From Bacteroidota bacterium (GTDB lineage Bacteria > Bacteroidota > Bacteroidia > Flavobacteriales_D > Crocinitomicaceae): a stretch of DNA of 51,390 nt. How positions within the stretch are numbered: the first letter of the stretch is position 1; every line of letters starts with the position of its first letter. The notes beneath the pieces were generated by a model. It worked only from the letters and a program-made list of their open reading frames with translations, was not told the DNA's origin and ran no database searches. This document shows, piece by piece, positions 40,154 through 51,186 of the stretch. The position numbers were made by a program, and so were the translations under genes. The stretch lies in NCBI GenBank assembly GCA_024280295.1, contig JAJRQK010000053.1, positions 1 to 51,390 on the forward strand, read 5' to 3'.

Positions 40154-40172
40154 CGCACTGAAATCGGTGATT

Positions 40173-41768
40173 ATGAGTTACGAAGTTGAAATTGAAAAGC
40201 GCAGAACATTTGGAATTATTTCTCACCCAGATGCTGGTAAAACAACCCTAACGGAGAAATTGCTTCTTTTTGGAGGCGCAATCCAATCTGCAGGAGCTGT
40301 AAAAAGCAATAAGATCAAAAAAACCGCAACTTCCGATTTCATGGAGATTGAGAAGCAACGTGGAATTTCGGTAGCGACTTCTGTAATGGCTTTCAATTAC
40401 GCAGGCAAGCAAATTAATATTTTAGATACTCCAGGTCACAAGGATTTCGCGGAAGATACATTTAGAACATTAACCGCAGTGGATAGTGTGATTTTGGTTG
40501 TCGATGTTGCAAGTGGTGTAGAGGCGCAAACAGAACGATTAATGGAAGTTTGTCGTATGAGAAAAACTCCTGTGCTTATTTTCGTGAATAAGATGGATCG
40601 TGATGGGAAGGAAGCTTTCGATTTATTAGATGAACTGGAGGAAAAACTTCAGATCAAAGTCCGACCGCTTACATGGCCAATTGGAATGGGAGATCGTTTT
40701 AAAGGAGTTTACAATCTTTACGATCACAGTCTCAACCTTTTCGCTGCGAATAAAACAAGCATCTCAGAAGAAATAGTCCCCATTAAAGATTTATCAGATT
40801 CACTATTAGACGAACTAGTTACTGAAGAGTTTGCAAACGAATTACGAGAGGAAGTTGAAATAATCGAAGGTGTTTATGATGAATTTGATCGTGAAGAGTA
40901 TTTAGCTGGTGATCTTGCTCCTGTGTTCTTTGGTTCAGCGATGAACAACTTTGGTGTGAAGGAACTACTCGATGCATTTTGTCGTATTTCCCCTGCTCCG
41001 AGAGGTCGAGATACAGACCAAGGATTCATAGAGCCAAACGATGATAAGTTTTCAGGATTTGTATTTAAAATACATGCTAATCTTGATCCAAAACACAGAG
41101 ATCGAATTGCATTTTTACGTATCGTATCAGGTGAATTTAAACGCAACACTTTCTACCAACACAGTAGAATTGCGAAGAAGATTAAATTCTCGAATCCAAC
41201 TGCATTCATGGCAAAGGAAAAGAGTGTTATTGAAACTGCTTATCCTGGAGATGTTATTGGATTGTACGATTCTGGGAACTTTAAAATTGGCGATACGCTG
41301 AGTGAAACTGGGAATTTTAACTTTAAAGGCATTCCGAGTTTTTCTCCAGAGATTTTCATGGAATTGGAGAATTTAGATCCTATGAAATCGAAGCAACTAG
41401 ACAAAGGAATTAGACAATTAATGGATGAAGGGGTTGCACAGATGTTTATCCGTCAGCCTGGAAATCGTAAAATTATTGGTACAGTAGGGCAACTTCAATT
41501 TGAGGTCATCAATTACCGTTTGGAGCATGAATATGGCGCTAAATGTCGATTTGCACCGCGAAATTATACGAAAGCTTGTTGGATAACATCAGATAACATT
41601 GATCAAATAGCTGCATTCAAGCGAGCTAAGGCAAGTCACATTGCGTTAGATAAAGATGATAATTTGGTCTTCTTAGCTGAGACTCCGTTTTTATTGACAA
41701 TGGCAGAGAAGGATTATCCGGATTTGACATTTCATCAGACATCGGAGTTTAAATTGGAAATGGAATGA
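40173..41768 (+). CDS. prfC: Peptide chain release factor 3
   Basis: 531-residue translational GTPase that recycles RF1/RF2 after peptide release. G motifs: P-loop [20 protein letters not shown]; switch [12 protein letters not shown]3 [15 protein letters not shown]4 FVNKMDRDG. The C-terminal domains carry [15 protein letters not shown]. Length is standard. The open frame reaches a GTG at 40167, but the ATG at 40173 ([20 protein letters not shown]) fits the family. It is divergent from the DUF2797 gene across a short double promoter. Confidence 0.96.
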
Positions 41769-41897: not shown

Positions 41898-41943
41898 ATG
41901 AAGTGTTAGATTAAGAAATGTAGATTTAGATTCAGATGTGAAA

Positions 41944-42000
41944 GCGTTAGGGATAGTAGCGACATCCTTTTGTCAAAAAGATACAGCGAATAGCCCGCTC
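41944..42000 (+). repeat. Conserved intergenic hairpin element, copy 1
   Basis: Conserved arms AGCGACATCC (41958-41967) and AAAGATACAGCG (41977-41988) flank a short hairpin (CTTTT, loop GTC, AAAAAG). Outer bases GCGTTAGGGATAG and TAGCCCGCTCG are also partly shared with copy 2 at 47941. A 63-codon open frame across it (41938-42129) is not a gene. It lies just past the 3' end of the minus-strand methyltransferase gene. Confidence 0.65.
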
Positions 42001-42017
42001 GAACGCCCAAAAAGAAA

Positions 42018-42821
42018 TTACCGATCTTTTCTTGCTACTATTGAATATACCATCGGGATTTTATTACCAATATGCTCAATTCTATACTTCCCAGCTTCAA
42101 ATTCATCAGTATGGCGGAAACAATTATAGGGTGAGTAATCAAACTCATCAAGAATCTCAATTTTTAACCCGTTAGATAGCAGGGCATTTACAACTTCACT
42201 AATGGGGTGATTCCAAGTAATCGAATCGAATTTCTCATTAGATTCTTTAGTCGCACAAGTCCCATCTAACTCCTCAATAATTGCTTCAGAATTGAAATAA
42301 TTGTAGCCAACCCTTGAAAAATCATCATCAAACATCCAAACAACTGGGTGAAATTCAACAAATACTAGTTTTCCACCTGGCTTTAAGAAATGAGAAACAA
42401 CTTTTGCCCATTTATCCATATCTGGCAACCAACCAATGGTGCCATAACTCGTAAAGACGATATCGAATTTATCATCTAAGTGATTTGGTAAATCGTAGAC
42501 ATCTGAACAAATAAACTTAGCAGATTGCTTGGTTTTCAGAGCCAATTCGGTTGCACGTTCTATCGCAATATTAGATAAATCAACCCCTGTTATATTTGCT
42601 CCCAACCTACTCATTGAAATAGTATCCTGACCAAAGTGACATTGTAAATGTAAAATAGATTTCCCTTCCAAATTAGTGAGGTAGCCTAACTCAATGTCAT
42701 TCAAAGATGATGCTCCAGAAATAAATGCATCGTTCTTATAGAAATCTGAATCGACGTGTTTTTCAGTCCTGCGATTCCATGATTCACGATTTATTTCAAG
42801 ATAGCCTTCATTTTCGCTCAT
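42018..42821 (-). CDS. Class I SAM-dependent methyltransferase
   Basis: 267-residue methyltransferase. The SAM site is ILHLQCHFGQDTISMSRLGA (about residues 55-74), followed by TGVDLSNIAIERA, a D in FICSDVYDLP, and the motif IV-like FDIVFTSYGTIGWLPDMDKW. It resembles small-molecule methyltransferases (methyltransf_11/25 class) with an N-terminal NRESWNRRTEKH start. Substrate is unknown. The gene stands alone at the edge of the accessory stretch; its 3' end abuts the conserved hairpin element. Confidence 0.88.
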   Translation of the reverse strand: MSENEGYLEINRESWNRRTEKHVDSDFYKNDAFISGASSLNDIELGYLTNLEGKSILHLQCHFGQDTISMSRLGANITGVDLSNIAIERATELALKTKQSAKFICSDVYDLPNHLDDKFDIVFTSYGTIGWLPDMDKWAKVVSHFLKPGGKLVFVEFHPVVWMFDDDFSRVGYNYFNSEAIIEELDGTCATKESNEKFDSITWNHPISEVVNALLSNGLKIEILDEFDYSPYNCFRHTDEFEAGKYRIEHIGNKIPMVYSIVARKDR

Positions 42822-42865
42822 AAAAATTTTATTATACTACGAATATACAAATGATATATAAAGTG

Positions 42866-42873
42866 TATATTTG
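42866..42873 (+). promoter_or_regulatory. -7 promoter element for the glycine-rich T9SS gene
   Basis: TATATTTG, perfect match. It gives an 80-90 base leader before ATG 42959; the leader contains a hairpin-capable ATACTTA/TAAGTAT pair (42885-42891 and 42905-42911). Confidence 0.45.
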
Positions 42874-42958
42874 AAGTCTGATAAATACTTAACTGCTAAG
42901 GGACTAAGTATACAAAAGGCAAAGTCTTCTTACAGAAAGCTTTTAAAAGCGTTGAATT

Positions 42959-44311
42959 ATGAATATGATTGTTAGAATCTTTGCCACTTGCATACTAATT
43001 GGATTAGCTGTAAATAAGTCCTTTTCTCAAGTAACCTATAATTATACAGGAGCTGTACAGACATACACAGTACCGCTATTCGTCACGCAATTGATAATAG
43101 ATATGGCTGGGGCAAGCGGAGGAAACTCATTTGGGCTTGCAGTAGTAAATACCCCAGGTTTAGGTGGCCGTGTTCAAACAACACTAAATGTTACTCCTGG
43201 AGATGTTTTGAATATCTATGTTGGAGGAAGAGGCGTTGATGGATCTGCAACTGGTATTGTAGCTGGTGGCTGGAATGGTGGCGGAAATGCTTATACGGCA
43301 TTTGGACTTTATTCTGGAGGTTCTGGAGGTGGAGGATCAGATATACGCTTTGGCGGAACAGCATTCGCAAATAGGTTAGTTATTGCTAGTGGCGGCGGCG
43401 GTGCTGCTACGAATACATTTTCAGGTGGAGATCATGGTGGAAATGGCGGTGGCTTAGTTGGACTTAATGGTGTATCGGGAGATCTACTTCCTACCACATT
43501 CGGCTTCGGTGGCACACAAGTAGCAGGTGGTGCGGGTGGTTTCTTCGCCCCTTATGTCCCAGGAGTTAATGGAACACTAGGACTTGGAGGCGATGCAGGT
43601 AGTGATAGCGCTGGTGGTGGCGCAGGCGGTGGTTATTATGGTGGTGGCGGTGGCTGCTGGGCAGGTGGCGGCGGTGGTAGTAGTTATGTTACTCCTGTTG
43701 GGTCATCTTTAACTACCCACACTCCAGGTTTTCAAACTGGTAATGGGTATATCTCAATTACAGGAATAATTATTCCACTCCCAATATCACTTTCTTTATT
43801 TCGCTCAAATTGTACTGAAGAAAACGTAGAGTTAACTTGGCAAACAACATCTGAGGAAGACAACAATTACTTTAGCATAGAAAAGAGTCTTGATGGAGTT
43901 GATTTTTATGAAATCGGTCAAACAAAAGGAAACGGAAATAGTAATCAAATAATAAACTACCGTTTCATAGATACGGAAAATGCAGGACTAGCTTATTACC
44001 GATTAAAACAAGTAGATTTTAATGGCAAATTTGACTATTCGAATATCATTTTTGAATCATGCAGAAATCAAGTAACAGAAATTACAATTGCCCCAAACCC
44101 TTCTAATGGTATTTTCACTGTTGATTTTGGAACTGAATTAATCGAAGCCCAATTATATGTTAGTACAACTTTAGGTGAAACTATTATGACTAAGTTAATT
44201 TCTAATCAAAAAAACATGGTCATAAGTTTAGATGATTTCCCTAAAGGAGTTTATCATTTAACGCTGATTAATAATGGACAAAAGGAAGTAAAGAAATTGG
44301 TAAAGCTTTAA
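42959..44311 (+). CDS. Glycine-rich exported protein with T9SS sorting domain
   Basis: 450-residue secreted protein. A signal peptide (to about NKSFSQ) is followed by VTYNYTGAVQTYTVP, a typical start of the Gly_rich family. Next come about 200 residues of glycine-rich repeats (GGSGGGGSDIRFGG, GGGAGGGYYGGGGGCWAGGG) resembling the ALK-type glycine-rich domain. From about residue 275 there is a short Fn3-like/linker domain common in Bacteroidota (ISLSLFRSNCTEENVELTWQ, then YYRLKQVDFNGKF). The type A T9SS domain ends the protein (ITIAPNPSNGIFTVDF, FPKGVYHLTLINNG, KLVKL). Likely a surface or matrix protein; ligand unknown. Confidence 0.88.
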   Translation: MNMIVRIFATCILIGLAVNKSFSQVTYNYTGAVQTYTVPLFVTQLIIDMAGASGGNSFGLAVVNTPGLGGRVQTTLNVTPGDVLNIYVGGRGVDGSATGIVAGGWNGGGNAYTAFGLYSGGSGGGGSDIRFGGTAFANRLVIASGGGGAATNTFSGGDHGGNGGGLVGLNGVSGDLLPTTFGFGGTQVAGGAGGFFAPYVPGVNGTLGLGGDAGSDSAGGGAGGGYYGGGGGCWAGGGGGSSYVTPVGSSLTTHTPGFQTGNGYISITGIIIPLPISLSLFRSNCTEENVELTWQTTSEEDNNYFSIEKSLDGVDFYEIGQTKGNGNSNQIINYRFIDTENAGLAYYRLKQVDFNGKFDYSNIIFESCRNQVTEITIAPNPSNGIFTVDFGTELIEAQLYVSTTLGETIMTKLISNQKNMVISLDDFPKGVYHLTLINNGQKEVKKLVKL

Positions 44312-44466
44312 ACCATCTAAAATAATCGTCAATCATTAATTCGACGAAACGAAAAAACATGTAGTTGACTATATTACAATATTTTAAGCAATAAAAACTA
44401 AGCCAAAAAGTTGGAACAAACCGAAAAGACTTAAAACTGAAGTAGGTGAAAATTTAAATAAAAAAA

Positions 44467-44940
44467 ATGAAATATTTCAACACATTATGCATCGTAAGTT
44501 GTTTATTATTTTTCAATTCTTGTAAAAATGATAAACCTTCATCAATCAGCCCAAGTTCAAATAATGAGGACACATTTTTAACAGCCACAATAAATGGTGA
44601 GGATGTGGCAGCAACAATGGCTGTTTTAGCAATAAAAGTAGAAGTTAGTGGCGTTTCCTTTAACACCATAGTAGCGGAAGATAAAACCAATGGTTGTAAT
44701 TTTAATTTATACCATAAAGTGACTGCTAAAGGATCACCACAAGATGTTCAAGCTTTCAGCATTGGATATAAAGAAATAGGATATATAGCTACTAAAGAAA
44801 ATTTGAAATTTGAAATCACCGATGAAAGCAACACTCATTTAGAAGGTACATTTTCTTTTACAGCAAAAAAAATTGGCGGTGATGCAACAACTACAGTTAC
44901 TAATGGGAAATTTAGAGCAAAGAAGAAGGGTTGGAATTAG
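44467..44940 (+). CDS. DUF6252-like lipoprotein
   Basis: 157-residue lipoprotein. The signal peptide YFNTLCIVSCLLFFNSC ends in a lipobox (Cys19). The mature part starts with a Ser/Asn linker, then the motif DTFLTATINGEDVAA and, near the end, LEGTFSFTAKK followed by TTVTNGKFRAKK. This is the pattern I associate with DUF6252 lipoproteins (a beta sandwich of unknown role). It is followed by an attC-like element and then the broken acetyltransferase gene. Confidence 0.75.
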   Translation: MKYFNTLCIVSCLLFFNSCKNDKPSSISPSSNNEDTFLTATINGEDVAATMAVLAIKVEVSGVSFNTIVAEDKTNGCNFNLYHKVTAKGSPQDVQAFSIGYKEIGYIATKENLKFEITDESNTHLEGTFSFTAKKIGGDATTTVTNGKFRAKKKGWN

Positions 44941-44950
44941 GACGTAAAAG

Positions 44951-45082
44951 CCCCTAACAATATATACACGTAAATGCGGTTTTGTGCGAAATTAAAAGTT
45001 TGTTTTTTTGTGCAAACTTTAGTGCTAAATCGAAAGGTAAGTGCTTTTAAAACAGCAACTACGGATATTAAAGCCGTTACCT
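44951..45082. repeat. attC-like imperfect inverted repeat, upstream of the GNAT gene
   Basis: Outer arms ATATACACGTAAATGC (44962-44977) and GCAACTACGGATATTA (45055-45070) are imperfectly complementary (10 of 16). Boundary words CCCCTAAC (44951-44958) and GTTACC (45076-45081) share the TAAC/GTTA pairing. In the middle a perfect 8-bp stem AAAGTTTG (44995-45002) / CAAACTTT (45013-45020) forms a hairpin. This layout resembles integron attC sites, but the boundary 7-mers do not match RYYYAAC/GTTRRRY exactly. Confidence 0.5.
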
Positions 45083-45104
45083 GACATCATAAAAAATGAT
45101 GTCA
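45082..45104 (+). promoter_or_regulatory. Hairpin covering the GNAT start codon
   Basis: TGACATCAT (45082-45090), loop AAAAA, ATGATGTCA (45096-45104) is a perfect 9-bp stem that buries the two tandem ATG codons. It could limit translation, or the match may arise by chance from the site boundary. Confidence 0.45.
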
Positions 45105-45519
45105 TTCGAATTAAATCCAATATTAGATTCAGTTAATTGGATAAGAATTTCGGAACTTTTTGAATTAGTTAATTGGGGAATTAGAGAACCCAAAGAAATT
45201 GAAAAATCATTTAGAGCAAGTTCTGTTACTTGTTTTGTGAAAGATGAAAGTGAAATTATTGGTTTCGGAAGAACTGTAGATGATGGAAGGTATTATGCTT
45301 TACTTGTTGACATAGTCATTCATCCAAATCATCAGTCAAAAGGAATAGGAAAATCAATTGTAAATGAACTACAGAATAGATTAGAAGGGTATGAATTTAT
45401 CACTTTTACTGCTGCTCCAAACAAAGAAGATTTTCACCATAAAATATGGTTGGAAAAAGCAAAAATCCGCGTTTATCTTTCCAAAAGACGAAAAGCAATT
45501 TAATGAACATTGTGAATAA
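45096..45519 (+). pseudogene. GNAT-family N-acetyltransferase with a 1-base frameshift
   Basis: The first 117 codons encode a GNAT domain with the acetyl-CoA signature HPNHQSKGIGKSIVNEL and the ALLVDIVIHP strand. The frame then runs into KIWLEKAKIRVYLSKRRKAI and a stop at 45503. Removing one T at about 45447 restores the family ending KIGWKKQKSAFIFPKDEKQF, then NEHCE and a stop at 45517-45519. The original gene thus had about 141 codons. It could be a real inactivation or an assembly error. The final beta strand is lost, so the protein would probably be unstable. Confidence 0.85.
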
Positions 45520-45529
45520 AAAATGTAGG

Positions 45530-45584
45530 TAACACTGAGTAAAAAAAATACGAAGTTAATGCTTCGCACAATTACTTATTGTTA
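45530..45584. repeat. attC-like imperfect inverted repeat, downstream of the GNAT gene
   Basis: Outer arms TAACACTGAGTAA (45530-45542) and TTACTTATTGTTA (45572-45584) pair at 11 of 13 positions. A central stem CGAAG (45551-45555) / CTTCG (45562-45566) forms an inner hairpin. It starts 10 bases after the repaired GNAT stop codon, the position of an attC site in a gene cassette. Confidence 0.5.
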
Positions 45585-45861
45585 GAAAATCATCCCTATC
45601 CTTAAGAGAAAATAAAGCTCAGGAGAACGTACTATTCTCTAGTCTAAACGTTACTGGATGTGCTCTAAATAACTGGATAGTGAGTTAAGGGTAGATTGCA
45701 TAAATTTCTAGATTGCCCATAACTTGTTCAGTTTCTAGATAAAATCAACTTGATTGAAATAATTTATCATTTTTTCACATATCTCGTGAACCATAGCTGT
45801 TACTAAGTAAAACGCCATCAAGGGACACAAAATTGTATTTATAAAAATATTTACAGTACTA
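45585..45861. other. Non-coding stretch before the PadR promoter
   Basis: No gene, RNA or convincing repeat recognised. Confidence 0.4.
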
Positions 45862-45897
45862 TGTATTGCATAATACAATCTTTTACATGTATCTTTG
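45862..45897 (+). promoter_or_regulatory. PadR/PspC promoter with overlapping palindromic operator
   Basis: -33 TTG (45866-45868), 21-base spacer, -7 TATCTTTG (45890-45897), then 19 bases to the PadR ATG. The palindrome TGTATT-GCAT-AATACA (45862-45877) covers the -33 element. PadR repressors bind ATGT/ACAT-type palindromes, so this fits autorepression. Confidence 0.65.
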
Positions 45898-45916
45898 TAT
45901 AAACAATTAGTCGAAT

Positions 45917-46252
45917 ATGAAATTAGAAAATACCAAGGCTCAGATGCGAAAGGGAATTTTAGAGTTCTGTATTCTATCGATATTAAGCAAAGAAGAAGCC
46001 TACCCGTCGGAGATCATCACCAAGTTGAAAGACGCAAAATTGATCGTTGTAGAAGGCACGCTTTATCCATTGCTAACTCGATTAAAGAATGCCGAACTAC
46101 TCACCTATCGCTGGGAAGAATCTACATCTGGCCCACCGAGAAAGTACTATTCAATCACCAACTTAGGCCAGACATTTCTTTACGAACTTTCGGGTACGTG
46201 GATAGAATTGAACAAGGCCGTTACAAAAATCACTCAAACAGACAAAAAATGA
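45917..46252 (+). CDS. PadR-family transcriptional regulator
   Basis: 111-residue winged-helix regulator. The PadR domain is complete: RKGILEFCILSILSKEEAYP, SEIITKLKDAKLIVVEGTLYP, LLTRLKNAELLTYRWEES and GPPRKYYSITNLGQTFL. It is the short PadR form without a long C-terminal domain. Its TGA overlaps the ATG of the PspC gene (ATGA), so both are translated together, as in many Bacteroidota. The palindrome in its promoter suggests that it represses this operon. Confidence 0.93.
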   Translation: MKLENTKAQMRKGILEFCILSILSKEEAYPSEIITKLKDAKLIVVEGTLYPLLTRLKNAELLTYRWEESTSGPPRKYYSITNLGQTFLYELSGTWIELNKAVTKITQTDKK

Positions 46253-47802
46253 AAAAGACAGTATCAGTAAATATCAAAGGAATCAACTTCTTAATTGAGG
46301 AGGATGCGTATGAGCTGTTGCAGGACTATTTAGACCGTCTGGCAACGACACTTAGAAATGAATCGGGATGTTCAGATATCATAGAGGATGTCGAATTACG
46401 AATTGCAGAGTTATGCTCAACAAAACTAAGTGAAAGCAAAACAGTAATTGAACTTTCTGACATCAATGAAATATTGGCCGCACTTGGAGATCCATCCGAA
46501 TACGTGGATGAAGAATCAGAGTATGCAGAAGAAACAAAAAGTTCAAACTCAAGCACAAAAGGTTCTGAAAAGCGTTTGTTTCGAGATACAGAAAATGCTA
46601 TAATAGGTGGAGTTTGCCAAGGAATTGCTGATTTTCTCAAACTAGATGTCGTCATCGTCCGCGCGATTTTCGTCGTACTATTTCTTTTCGGAGGATTCGG
46701 GTTTCCGCTCTACATCATTCTATGGATCATCGTTCCCAAGGCAAAAAGCACCATTGACCGTTTGCGCATGAAAGGAAGACCTATCACAGTTGAAAATGTG
46801 AAAGATGAAGTTGGAAATGCAGCTGAACGTTTCAAAGACGGTACAAAAAACTTTGCAGGTAAAATTCGCGAAAACGACACCTACAAGAAAAGCATGTCTC
46901 GTGGAGCAAGGATATTATCCACAATCGCAGGATCAATACTGATCCTTTGGGGATTGAGTTGGCTTATAGCACTCCTAGTATTTAGCCTTGGAGGATTCGA
47001 TTTCATCCCAGCAATTGACGACGGTGGATTACTATCTCTTTCTGATTTTGGTGCACTCGTTCTACCCCATACAAGTGATGTAGGAACAGCATGGGTTGGA
47101 GGATTACTATTGGCTTCAAGTTCAATTACACTACTTCTACTCTTAGGATCAATTCTCATCTTTAGAATTCGGAATAAATGGGCAAACCTAAGTTTATTGG
47201 GTATTTTCGTGACAGGAATTATTGGTTTAGTAATGTGCCTTTATTTAGGAGCGAAAACAGGTCGCGATTTCTTCTATGAAGGTGAAATAGAAAAGCAAAT
47301 TGCCACCGTTGATACCGACGAGTTAGTTGTCTTAACTGAAATTGATGACATTGGGAAGCCTAGGAAATTTCACATCAAGAAAAACGGACGATTTGGTACC
47401 GTTAAAATTAGTGAAACCTCAATTACAGATTACGGAATTCATTTTAAATTCAAGCAATCAAACGATACACTCTTCCACGTTCACCAATACAAAAGTGCTC
47501 ATGGCAGAACACGAAAAAAAGGAGAAGATAAAGCAGAAAGGATTACGCATTCTATGGCTATTTTTGGAGATACATTGACATTACAAGCGAGTTATTCATT
47601 TCCACGAGCCGACAAACTACGCGAGCAAGAAGTTATTGTGATTATCGAAATTCCTAAAGGAGGTCGCGTACGCTTGAACGATCAAATTGTTCACTTAGGC
47701 GGCAGTATATCTGATGATGACGGGGGAGAAGTTGAAAAAACAATTTATTACAATGAGGATGGCTATATGGAAGGAAGTGGCAGCTATTATCATTACTACT
47801 AA
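46249..47802 (+). CDS. PspC-domain membrane protein
   Basis: 517-residue membrane protein. An N-terminal cytoplasmic region (about 1-95: VSVNIKGINFLIEEDAYELL, LGDPSEYVDEE) is followed by the PspC domain (about 105-170: KRLFRDTENAIIGGVCQGIA, DFLKLDVVIVRAIFVVLFL, LYIILWIIVPK). Further TM helices follow (SILILWGLSWLIALLVFSL; a second near 285-305; LLGIFVTGIIGLVMCLYLG), then a C-terminal beta-rich domain of about 150 residues. Likely an envelope-stress sensor or effector under PadR control. The open frame extends upstream to 45895 but only overlaps PadR; ATG 46249 is the start. Confidence 0.9.
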   Translation: MKKTVSVNIKGINFLIEEDAYELLQDYLDRLATTLRNESGCSDIIEDVELRIAELCSTKLSESKTVIELSDINEILAALGDPSEYVDEESEYAEETKSSNSSTKGSEKRLFRDTENAIIGGVCQGIADFLKLDVVIVRAIFVVLFLFGGFGFPLYIILWIIVPKAKSTIDRLRMKGRPITVENVKDEVGNAAERFKDGTKNFAGKIRENDTYKKSMSRGARILSTIAGSILILWGLSWLIALLVFSLGGFDFIPAIDDGGLLSLSDFGALVLPHTSDVGTAWVGGLLLASSSITLLLLLGSILIFRIRNKWANLSLLGIFVTGIIGLVMCLYLGAKTGRDFFYEGEIEKQIATVDTDELVVLTEIDDIGKPRKFHIKKNGRFGTVKISETSITDYGIHFKFKQSNDTLFHVHQYKSAHGRTRKKGEDKAERITHSMAIFGDTLTLQASYSFPRADKLREQEVIVIIEIPKGGRVRLNDQIVHLGGSISDDDGGEVEKTIYYNEDGYMEGSGSYYHYY

Positions 47803-47832
47803 ATCTAATTAATGATTAGGAGTAAAGTTACG

Positions 47833-47878
47833 AAAGTGGTGTTCAATATAAAACAAGTTGGGCGCCACTTTTGTTGTT
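47833..47878 (+). terminator. Probable terminator of the PadR-PspC operon
   Basis: AAAGTGGTG and CGCCACTTTT pair (one G-T pair, about 9 bp) over a loop of about 20 bases. The stem is followed by the broken T tract TTGTTGTTT. Confidence 0.5.
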
Positions 47879-47940
47879 TAACAACTGAGTTCCAAACTTA
47901 TCTTAACACTATTTTAGAGTAGAACTTAGGTTAGTAGGGT

Positions 47941-48040
47941 GCTCGGGCGTGCTTTCCGCTGTATCTTTAATTCAAAACTAGAAATCAGAGTTGGCTACTA
48001 CTACTTTGGAAATTAAAGGATGTCGCTCCAATCACTAGCA
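47941..48040 (-). repeat. Conserved intergenic hairpin element, copy 2
   Basis: In minus-strand orientation it has the same arms as copy 1: AGCGACATCC (48027-48018) and AAAGATACAGCG (47968-47957), with GCTAG-GAT and GGAAAGC flanks. Between them the stem is longer, CTTTAATT/AATTAAAG (47965-47972 and 48011-48018 on the plus strand), with a loop of 38 bases. Arms are conserved while the stem sequence differs but remains paired. Confidence 0.65.
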
Positions 48041-48133
48041 CGAAATCTTGCTTCGGAAAAACAAGTCCTATTTCTTTGATCATTTTCTCTTCGAATTAAT
48101 CATAAATCTCCTACATTTTAAGAACTTTGTAAC

Positions 48134-49504
48134 TTGAAGTACGCGATTATAGATATAGAAACGACTGGAGGTGCGCCTAAGGACTCCAAAATCACAGAGA
48201 TTGCCATTTACATTCATGATGGAGAAAAAGTAATTGACGAATATGCAACATTGATTAATCCAGAGATGCCAATTCCTCCGTTCATTGTTCAATTGACGGG
48301 CATAAATGATCGAATGGTAAAGGATTCTCCAAAATTCTTCGAAGTAGCAAAAGAAATCATTGAATTTACCACAGATTGTGTTTTTGTAGCTCATAACGTG
48401 AGCTTTGATTACGGAATTGTGCGCATGGAATTTAACACACTTGGTTTTGATTACCGTCGTCCTCACCTATGTACAGTTAGAGCTTCAAGATTTGTAATTC
48501 CAGGTCACGAGTCGTATAGTCTTGGCAAATTGACCAAGAAATTAGGAATCAATTTAGTTGGTCGTCACCGAGCAGGAGGAGATGCACTTGCAACGGCAAA
48601 ACTATTCACATTACTGATTGAAAAAGACCCAAAAGGGCTTGCCACATTTATTCAGGAGGAGATTAATCCAAAACGACTTCATCCAAACTTGGATGTTAGT
48701 GCACTTGAGGAGATTCCAAATAAAGCTGGAGTCTATCGATTCTATAACGAAACAAATCAGCTCATTTACATTGGGAAAAGTATTCATCTTAAGAAACGAA
48801 TTGAACATCATTTGCGAAATTCAAAGACAAAAAAAGCAATCCAAATGCAAACTGATATTGCTCGCATTGAATTCGATTTGACTGGTTCAGAATTAATCGC
48901 TTTGCTTCAAGAAACACAGCAAATAAAGGAGCATCAACCTATTTACAATCGCGCATTAAAACGTTCAAATTTTCCATTTGGCTTATACGATTATTTGGAT
49001 GAGAAGGGTTACTTGCGATTGCACATTGCTCAAGTTTCAAAAATACAAGATGCTCCACTGTTAAGTTTTAGCTCAAAAAAAGAGGCAACTGTAACACTAG
49101 AGCGATTCGTTGAGGAACATCGTTTGTGCAAAAAATTATGCAACATCTACAAAACAAGCAGTTCGTGTTTCCAGTATCAGATTAAAGAATGTAATGGCGC
49201 ATGCATCAATGAAGAAAGCACTAAAGATTATAATTTACGCTGTCAAGAACTAGTAGATGAACTCAACTTAAACGGGGCTTCATTTTACATTGTAGGAAAA
49301 GGACGTGCTCGAAACGAAAAAAGCTTAGTTTATATAGAAAAGGGGGTATTAAGAGGTTTTGGTTATGCGCCATTTCATTTTAACCGACAGAAACCTGAAA
49401 AATGGAATCGATTTATAGACTTAGTTAAAGATGACAAAGATTCCCGCACGATTGTAAAATCCTACTTGCGAAAGAATGAAGAAGTAGAACTCGTTTATTT
49501 GTAA
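48134..49504 (+). CDS. DnaQ-like 3'-5' exonuclease fused to a GIY-YIG endonuclease domain
   Basis: 456-residue fusion. The N-terminal DEDDh exonuclease (about 1-165) has AIIDIETTGG (Asp, Glu), AHNVSFDYGIV (Asp) and GRHRAGGDALATAKL (His, Asp). The GIY-YIG domain (about 195-275) reads NKAGVYRFYNETNQLIYIGK, then SIHLKKRIEHH, like UvrC/Cho. The C-terminal third has a Cys cluster (CKKLCNIYKTSSSCFQYQIK, then CNGAC), as in UvrC-type proteins. It probably cuts and trims damaged DNA; similar DnaQ-UvrC fusions exist in Actinobacteria and Bacteroidota. The start is TTG at 48134, which gives the usual K-Y-A-I-I-D N-terminus; no ATG is available nearby. Confidence 0.92.
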   Translation: MKYAIIDIETTGGAPKDSKITEIAIYIHDGEKVIDEYATLINPEMPIPPFIVQLTGINDRMVKDSPKFFEVAKEIIEFTTDCVFVAHNVSFDYGIVRMEFNTLGFDYRRPHLCTVRASRFVIPGHESYSLGKLTKKLGINLVGRHRAGGDALATAKLFTLLIEKDPKGLATFIQEEINPKRLHPNLDVSALEEIPNKAGVYRFYNETNQLIYIGKSIHLKKRIEHHLRNSKTKKAIQMQTDIARIEFDLTGSELIALLQETQQIKEHQPIYNRALKRSNFPFGLYDYLDEKGYLRLHIAQVSKIQDAPLLSFSSKKEATVTLERFVEEHRLCKKLCNIYKTSSSCFQYQIKECNGACINEESTKDYNLRCQELVDELNLNGASFYIVGKGRARNEKSLVYIEKGVLRGFGYAPFHFNRQKPEKWNRFIDLVKDDKDSRTIVKSYLRKNEEVELVYL

Positions 49505-50028: not shown

Positions 50029-51186
50029 ATGTACACCAAAAAATCTTATATAACGCTCAAGCATCTTGTCATCGATGGAAGTAAATACATTGGGCTCAAA
50101 CACTATCCAAGTAAAGCGATAACAGTAATCATTGAATCTTTATCAACTATAGATTGGAGTGATGATTACGGGATGCACTATCTTCCCAATACAAAATCAA
50201 ACCTAGACCAGGTTTTTTCACTTTTCAAGGGGATCGCGCATATCAACTGTACGCATTTTTACAGAAACAAATCCCCTCACATTTCAACTACCATCTTAAA
50301 TGTCGATGGGTTTCGTAAGAGGCGTCTAAAACCTGGTTATCGGGCATGTCCTGAAGAATTTCTTCGTAAACTAGAGTTAAAGCGTTATGCGTTAAGTACA
50401 GCAAAGACCTACATTTCCTTCTTCGAAAAATTCATCAATTTCTATCCAGAAATCGCTCTAGAAAGCCTTGATGAAAATGATATTCGGAATTATTTGCAAC
50501 ATCTCATACAAGAGAACAAATCTGGATCCTACTTAAATCAAGTCGTAAATAGCATTAAGTTCTACTACGAAGTTGTAAAGGACATGCCCAATCGTTTCTA
50601 TTCAATTGAGCGTCCGCGACAGGAATACAAATTACCAAAGGTCATTAGTATGGAAGAGATTGCAGGTATGATTAATGTAACCCGTAACATCAAGCACCGT
50701 TGCATAATTGCCCTACTCTATTCCGCAGGGTTACGCAGAGGCGAACTACTTAATTTGAAACTTACTGATATTGACAGTAAACGAATGCTGATAACTGTCC
50801 GCTCTGGGAAGGGCAACAAAGATCGCGTAACGCTACTAAGTCCAACTATGCTAGAAGAACTCAGAAATTACTTCATAGAATACCGACCAAAAGATTACCT
50901 ATTTGAAGGAGAGAGCGGCTTAAAATATGGCAGTAGTAGTGTTCTCCTAATTGTAAAGCGAGCAGGAATAAATGCAAAAGTCACTAAGAACGTCACTCCC
51001 CACATGCTCCGCCACAGTTTTGCTACTCATTTATTAGAAAACGGGGCGGATCTGCGTTACATCCAATCATTATTAGGTCATAATAGCAGCAAAACAACAG
51101 AAATCTACACGCAGGTAACATTAAGCCATGTCAAGGAGATTAAAAGCCCACTAGACTCTTTAAATTTAACCTCCTATAATGAATAA
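50029..51186 (+). CDS. Tyrosine-type site-specific recombinase/integrase
   Basis: 385-residue tyrosine recombinase. The N-terminal ~100 residues are an extra domain. The SAM-like core-binding domain is about 108-190 (FLRKLELKRYALSTAKTYIS). The catalytic domain has Arg in SAGLRRGELLNLKL, Lys in RSGKGNKDRV, His-x-x-Arg in TPHMLRHSFATHLLENGADL, His in QSLLGHNSSKTT, and nucleophile Tyr in EIYTQV. The set is complete, so it should be active. It lacks the extra segment before the HxxR box that marks integron IntI enzymes. It resembles the stand-alone XerD-like integrases common in Bacteroidota accessory DNA. Confidence 0.93.
   Translation: MYTKKSYITLKHLVIDGSKYIGLKHYPSKAITVIIESLSTIDWSDDYGMHYLPNTKSNLDQVFSLFKGIAHINCTHFYRNKSPHISTTILNVDGFRKRRLKPGYRACPEEFLRKLELKRYALSTAKTYISFFEKFINFYPEIALESLDENDIRNYLQHLIQENKSGSYLNQVVNSIKFYYEVVKDMPNRFYSIERPRQEYKLPKVISMEEIAGMINVTRNIKHRCIIALLYSAGLRRGELLNLKLTDIDSKRMLITVRSGKGNKDRVTLLSPTMLEELRNYFIEYRPKDYLFEGESGLKYGSSSVLLIVKRAGINAKVTKNVTPHMLRHSFATHLLENGADLRYIQSLLGHNSSKTTEIYTQVTLSHVKEIKSPLDSLNLTSYNE

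Follow-up and report, generated by a model that had tools for sequence, protein, structure and literature searches.

Two short intergenic palindromes in a 51,390-nucleotide stretch of a Crocinitomicaceae genome (Bacteroidota bacterium, GCA_024280295.1, contig JAJRQK010000053.1; the whole stretch is called the window below) are copies of a dispersed family, Flavo-1 (Rfam RF01705). Flavo-1 is likely to be a short, non-coding, non-autonomous insertion element that occupies intergenic sites in both orientations and is spread in trans. The family match, copy number, covariation, extragenic placement, patchiness, and the existence of the same gene pairs with and without the element were observed directly. 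Insertion of the REP or ERIC type (repetitive extragenic palindrome; enterobacterial repetitive intergenic consensus) is favored over a small RNA (sRNA) because the copies are intergenic, occur in either orientation, are patchily distributed, leave related gene pairs occupied or empty, and contain few G-U pairs. An imperfect palindrome, commonly of some 70–130 bp, would insert between genes with indifference to orientation, spread by an enzyme that would act in trans and be encoded away from the copies, and the conserved entity would be a DNA hairpin.

The Rfam family has the same sequence and structure as the window blocks, and both copies match its model end to end (Table 1). A scan of 14.4 kb against 4227 families gave E values of 5.8e-7 for copy 2 and 9e-6 for copy 1; copy 2 exceeds the gathering score of 42, while copy 1 taken alone falls below it, yet is matched over its full length. 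With our own model R1, copies 1 and 2 score 83.8 and 73.0 bits, both being among the 50 sequences used to build it. Each strand of the window has one exact occurrence of the arm AGCGACATCC (41958–41967, plus; 48018–48027, minus) and likewise one of AAAGATACAGCG (41977–41988, plus; 47957–47968, minus), confirming the arms on opposite strands reported in a preliminary description of this DNA. The stems and loops given there are also correct: the inner hairpin of copy 1 is CTTTT-GTC-AAAAAG (four T versus five A) and that of copy 2 is CTTTAATT-38 nt-AATTAAAG. The element limits had been put in the right places and drawn slightly too narrow, as alignment adds a GCGTT/AACGC outer stem and a CCCAAA edge. 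Single arms, with mismatches allowed, do not exceed their frequency in shuffled sequence; the occurrence of both arms in the right order, two times, is distinct from such single-arm counts, and RF01705 scores both places. Folded singly, neither copy is more stable than its shuffles, whether as RNA or DNA and on both strands (z −0.69 to +1.30), which counts against the structural claim originally made for the pair. The structural case is therefore comparative only, and on the RF01705 matches, further copies, and covariation the two-copy hairpin is confirmed.

Further copies in the genome and covariation in larger alignments, on which the preliminary description had staked its case, were both found. 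This genome (3.46 Mb, 74 contigs) contains at least 54 copies at E ≤ 0.01, a set combining matches to R1, built from 50 copies (14 from this genome and 36 from relatives), with separate searches for each arm. Outside this set stand one copy truncated at a contig end and another whose loop spans about 280 nt. Searching the whole genome with RF01705, with 150 of the 614 first-look candidates scored, yielded 53 matches at E ≤ 10, 47 at E < 0.01, and 17 above the cut-off. In the 54 own copies, aligned by fitting to R1, 89.9% of cells are paired and 16 of the 19 stem pairs show double changes. Their covariation score is 0.374, compared with 0.164 when shuffled (0/500), and sliding the alignment yields no more than 0.108. 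For the 50 mixed copies, aligned independently with MAFFT, the score is 0.480 versus 0.193 (0/500; slid, at most 0.142), and double changes again occur in 16 of 19 pairs, a bare count reached in 19 of 500 shuffles.

The consensus reads, from the outside inward, GCGTT-A-GGG-A-TA-GNA-GC-GGC-ATC-C-TTTT, loop, AAAA-GAT-ACA-GC-GGA-TA-G-CCC-G, a spacer or small side hairpin, and AACGC-CCAAA. The element ends form an imperfect repeat (GCGTT/AACGCCC), and the outer stem is the weakest part, with 75.0% of cells paired in the 54 own copies. The internal loops contain conserved bases, and the terminal loop is highly variable, overall size commonly falling between some 70 and 130 bp. A second palindrome within the loop, TGAG...CGAA, is present in 32 of 182 copies versus 4.3% of shuffled loops, a descriptive figure for a motif picked post hoc; examples are L015 and L013 in this genome and L257 and L260 in G241, and other families have it too. 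Two own copies (L001 and L090) share a similar private side hairpin with a CTTTTGCAAAAAGG core and have differing loops.

All 54 own copies examined for placement have their midpoint outside script-called genes (this set, made up of 49 copies on the RF01705 list and five others, differs slightly from the 54 of R1). Twenty-four lie in convergent gaps, 14 in tandem gaps in the sense direction, nine in tandem gaps antisense, and seven in divergent gaps. Convergent gaps are over-represented (24/54) relative to gaps that lack the element, measure 60 bp or more, and come from the window and 11 own-genome stretches (15/58, p 0.048). The window copies lie, as first described, beside gene ends and in opposite orientation, copy 1 in a convergent gap and copy 2 in a tandem gap behind the PspC-domain gene.

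Flavo-1 is found in 13 of the 34 genomes of the genus (E ≤ 1e-4), this genome being the richest, and, across the class, in 63 of 198 genomes (E ≤ 1e-5, with at most 22 candidates scored per genome). Behind lpd, R1 matches in two of 30 congener loci, one of the 30 having merely 57 bases behind the gene. These two matches, in G012 and G007, are in opposite orientations. A third lpd-locus match, in this genome (G000), lies on the other side of lpd, and in G022 and G040, with lpd genes sharing 93 and 92% identity with the G012 gene, none is present behind lpd. Opposite orientations behind the same gene were also observed at dnaN (L016/L147) and at the gene shared by L026 and L138. Flavo-1 is present behind thiC in 4 of 11 loci and behind a second oxidoreductase gene in 5 of 20. 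The identities of lpd, thiC, and dnaN were confirmed by NCBIfam; naming the oxidoreductase gene sthA was rejected, its best NCBIfam match being dihydrolipoyl dehydrogenase, below cut-off. Judged by eye, several element-free loci seem to retain the same next gene, and in G003 and G040 what appears from its translation to be thiE lies 3 bases behind thiC. At locus L219 of G019, the gap behind thiC is filled by another palindrome, containing CTGAGGCTCTCGAAG. The gene pair flanking copy 2 is without the element in Flavobacteriales bacterium UBA7325 (L202; 86% protein identity), where the unaligned middle spans 94 bp versus 299 bp in the window, and no Flavo-1 match to R1 was found in any of the set of 14 loci to which that of UBA7325 belongs. 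Given that most sites are without the element, we infer that occupied sites arose via insertion and not by repeated loss.

The chemistry of the pairs bears on whether RNA or DNA is conserved. Over 14 inner pairs, 117 copies from this genus and its order contain 1496 Watson–Crick, 43 G-U, and 28 A-C cells, and 65 copies from other families contain 871, 8, and 3, giving 2367, 51, and 31 in total. As a control, the acceptor and T stems of 15 distinct tRNAs from the same loci contain 160, 15, and 0 such cells; the register was set per tRNA by most Watson–Crick pairs, with one tRNA at a different register, which lowers A-C and G-U alike. G-U makes up 2.1% of standard pairs in Flavo-1 versus 8.6% in tRNAs (p 2e-5), and the G-U to A-C split also differs (p 0.002). 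With G-U pairs few and A-C not much rarer, the constraint is nearly strand-blind and fits a DNA hairpin better than RNA. Because the cells are non-independent and tRNAs represent a single kind of RNA, the comparison supports, and does not prove, a DNA hairpin as the conserved thing.

Several points weigh against an insertion element. No mobilizer was identified in this analysis. Separate arm searches found no autonomous, gene-carrying version: lone arms were copies first missed, decayed copies, chance, or the one copy with the loop of about 280 nt, and this longest loop contains no recognizable gene. Plasmids and phages gave no match to a single G148 copy, a short query that makes for a weak search. 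The 205-base difference at the gene pair of copy 2 is about twice the element, so the site is not a clean single insertion; the flanks are too diverged for a target-site duplication to be read, and gain or loss at any single site is not proved. Lagging-strand HUH transposition might produce a strand bias, and orientation relative to local GC skew shows none (30 same, 35 opposite, n = 65, p 0.62). Where genomes share a site, paired changes have preserved the pairing of the copies there, suggesting that selection acted once they had inserted. Within Flavo-1, G-U cells exceed A-C cells, both overall (51 versus 31, p 0.035) and in the 65 other-family copies (8 versus 3), and several 5′ transcribed regions of Flavobacterium psychrophilum overlap Flavo-1 matches in the accessible part of a 2021 transcriptome study (PMC9723704). 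The last two points, like the covariation and the conserved internal-loop bases, would suit a structured RNA, either an sRNA or a cis element, and this is how Rfam files the family (type “Gene; sRNA”); Table 1 of Weinberg et al. (2010), a source available in part, enters it as “y” (probably) for RNA and “n” for both cis-regulatory and riboswitch (PMC2864571). An RNA is nevertheless quite improbable for a family that has 54 copies in a single genome and leaves 21 of 34 congeners without a match at E ≤ 1e-4. Its copies lie on either strand with respect to genes and can face opposite ways behind one and the same gene, and their pairs are scarce in G-U with A-C present, unlike tRNAs. The same sections of the F. 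psychrophilum study report Flavo-1 matches as sense or antisense indifferently, with no rule between the two, and many beyond transcribed regions (PMC9723704). In G012, moreover, the element lies beyond a terminator-like hairpin called by the scan behind lpd; in G007 such a hairpin is visible by eye between lpd and Flavo-1, and the scan calls none. Of the three ideas in the preliminary description, the small RNA is accordingly disfavored by placement, by the counts against tRNAs, and by the published remark, and the transcript-end structure by the position of the element past these hairpins in opposite orientations. A REP-like mobile hairpin, dispersed, intergenic, in either orientation, and at occupied and unoccupied gene pairs, is the best supported.

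A bidirectional intrinsic terminator is the least probable account and can hardly be entertained: convergent gaps are over-represented, as it would have it, but the consensus has no T run after the stem on either strand (CCCAAA follows instead), no terminator match is found at copy 2, and lpd of G012 has its own terminator-like hairpin ahead of the element. The intrinsic terminator in its usual form, a G+C-rich hairpin followed by a T run, was rejected for want of a T run and of any match at copy 2. One terminator-like minus-strand hairpin does lie within copy 1 (window 41985–41999), behind the methyltransferase gene. A somewhat better, still tentative, possibility, and one compatible with an insertion element, is that inserted copies are kept since the DNA hairpin acts locally, in protein binding, supercoiling, or insulation between genes. 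Some copies outlast speciation with their pairing kept: those behind thiC in G015, G005, G024, and G041 share place and orientation, and those at the oxidoreductase gene in G013 and G041 have near-identical flanks and differ in the loop stem by a paired change from C-G to T-A. The excess of convergent gaps also agrees with a local role. On the other side, most congeners examined are without the element at the thiC and oxidoreductase sites, and independent insertion at a favored place would fit the shared copies as well. Quasipalindrome repair is a further possible cause of kept pairing. Persistence may thus reflect local use, favored re-insertion, or quasipalindrome repair, which these data do not separate.

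For a mobile Flavo-1, one candidate enzyme is the REP-associated tyrosine transposase (RAYT; TnpA-REP), an HUH tyrosine transposase, although that Flavo-1 is a REP moved by a RAYT, particularly of the Bacteroidetes subclass 2.6, is doubtful. RAYT-type PF01797 genes occur in 9 of the 13 congeners that bear Flavo-1 and in 2 of the 21 that do not (Fisher p 5e-4, kinship uncorrected), the type being assigned from score and length, with the G019 match weak, the G041 match lying within a 681-aa frame, and G003, which has IS200-like matches only, counted as without RAYT. When any Y1 match is admitted, IS200-like included, the counts are 10 of 13 and 3 of 21. The G005 and G007 proteins are above the NCBIfam cut-off for the REP-associated tyrosine transposase and resemble subclass 2.6 motifs as read against the available portion of a 2018 survey, which reports “atypical secondary structures” on the flanks of Bacteroidetes subclass 2.6 genes, structures that have no GT[AG]G foot and are copied elsewhere in the genome (PMC6006769); by eye, no such foot was seen in the Flavo-1 consensus. 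Against a RAYT stands the finding of no Flavo-1 at E ≤ 1 near 11 RAYT-type genes (10 stretches, 95.9 kb, six bearing congeners; the G040, G041, and G043 genes are outside this set). Four Flavo-1 genomes (this genome, G012, G022, and G047, the last 72% complete) have no RAYT-type match, and strand bias is absent. The G007 gene (L052, 700–2600) stands amid its own repeated palindromes, GCGAAGGATTGCAAATCCTTCG and GCAGGATTTGCAATCCTGC, which are unlike Flavo-1. The TnpA-REP link raised in the preliminary description thus finds no backing at these 11 genes, nor in this genome, where the search for a tnpA-REP gene gave solely an IS200-like match split over two frames and one sub-threshold fragment, and no RAYT-type gene. 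The sole two Flavo-1 matches at the Y1 transposase loci searched are own-genome copies already known. The best Y1 match of this genome (L031/L032, G000:C51:208072-208420) has a Flavo-1 copy about 2 kb away. In another family, two RAYT-like genes have a Flavo-1 copy about 4 kb away, a proximity that is unremarkable because the stretches examined there were centered on copies. RAYT as the proven mobilizer was rejected, as there is no linkage to copies, and it stays a candidate through co-occurrence. A fuller scheme, in which Flavo-1 is a Bacteroidota DNA hairpin parasite moved in trans by an HUH enzyme and in places domesticated as a maintained intergenic DNA structure, is unlikely; its enzyme would perhaps be a subclass 2.6 RAYT, with Flavo-1 as a second substrate beside the palindromes flanking the transposase gene itself.

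The window features are collected in Table 1. The true start of the PspC-domain frame is probably further in than 45895. The window also encodes a tyrosine recombinase of the phage integrase family (50029–51186, plus).

Table 1. Flavo-1 copies, their arms, and neighboring genes in the window
Feature	Position	Strand	Basis
Flavo-1 copy 1 (short loop)	41939..42004	+	RF01705, 40.2 bits, E 9e-6, model 1–76 of 76, cut-off 42
Copy 1, 5′ arm GGGATAGTAGCGACATCCTTTT	41950..41971	+	Read from sequence; pairs counted in alignments
Copy 1, 3′ arm AAAGATACAGCGAATAGCCCG	41977..41997	+	Pattern match; pairs counted in alignments
Flavo-1 copy 2 (38-nt loop), antisense to both neighbor genes	47941..48044	-	RF01705, 44.6 bits, cut-off 42
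Copy 2, 5′ arm GATTGGAGCGACATCCTTT	48015..48033	-	Pattern match
Copy 2, 3′ arm AAAGATACAGCGGAAAGCACG	47948..47968	-	Pattern match
prfC (release factor 3), neighbor of copy 1	40167..41768	+	Open reading frame; PF16658 RF3_C, E 1.5e-43
Methyltransferase gene, convergent neighbor of copy 1	42018..42821	-	Open reading frame; PF13649, E 2.2e-13
Open frame with PspC domain, 3′ end facing copy 2	45895..47802	+	Open reading frame; PF04024, E 2.5e-22, residues 226–283
Exonuclease/GIY-YIG gene, other neighbor of copy 2	48134..49504	+	Open reading frame; PF00929, PF01541

A motif catalogued as a “structured RNA” and showing strong covariation seems to be a palindrome of mobile DNA. If this is true, Flavo-1 was misfiled on the strength of its covariation, and annotations of transcripts that bear its name are misleading; other orphan RNA motifs present in many copies, indifferent to strand, and patchily distributed would merit a similar check, and the Bacteroidota gain a REP/ERIC-like repeat whose mobilizer can be searched for. 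The Flavo-1 RNA motif was described in 2010 with no assigned function, as far as the accessible text goes (Weinberg et al., PMC2864571). The earlier remark that the block had no named function therefore stands for the function, and fails for the block, which has a name. No paper describing Flavo-1 as a mobile DNA repeat was found in a search covering main texts and few subscription papers, supplements lying outside it. In their available portions, neither PMC3733652 nor PMC12306157 contains “Rfam”, and PMC12306157 does not contain “Flavo-1” either. The sequence family has been known since 2010, and what is new is its reading as a dispersed, intergenic, probably mobile palindrome of DNA.

Compared with the Rfam entry, which is filed as an sRNA gene, the copies described here resemble dispersed DNA insertions. 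An outer stem, GCGTT/AACGC, is present in many copies of the genus, in some together with a small side hairpin. This region is left unpaired in the 76-position Rfam consensus. Integron attC sites are single-strand hairpins with a variable terminal loop and unpaired bulges, and Flavo-1 resembles them in this build. In contrast to attC, Flavo-1 copies are scattered singly and, by look, the sequence inside the stem is kept. The likeness to REP/RAYT systems (REPtrons) lies in dispersed, intergenic, imperfect hairpins with fixed mismatches, many per genome and in either orientation; Flavo-1 differs in being longer, with a very variable loop, no GT[AG]G foot seen, and no place beside the RAYT-type genes examined. 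ERIC and RU-1, a 127-bp sequence, resemble miniature inverted-repeat transposable elements (MITEs) and are, from the accessible parts of two reports, non-coding, palindromic, and mostly intergenic, at a size of about 100 bp that Flavo-1 shares along with these traits (PMC2229807, PMC2759123). They are likened by description, not by sequence, and Flavo-1 has neither a shown target duplication nor a terminal repeat common to an autonomous element. Flavo-1 probably works like REP or ERIC, though it is not proved to belong to the REP/RAYT system, and sites with and without the element in relatives, a mark of MITEs and ERIC, were found at thiC, at the oxidoreductase gene, at lpd, and at the gene pair of copy 2.

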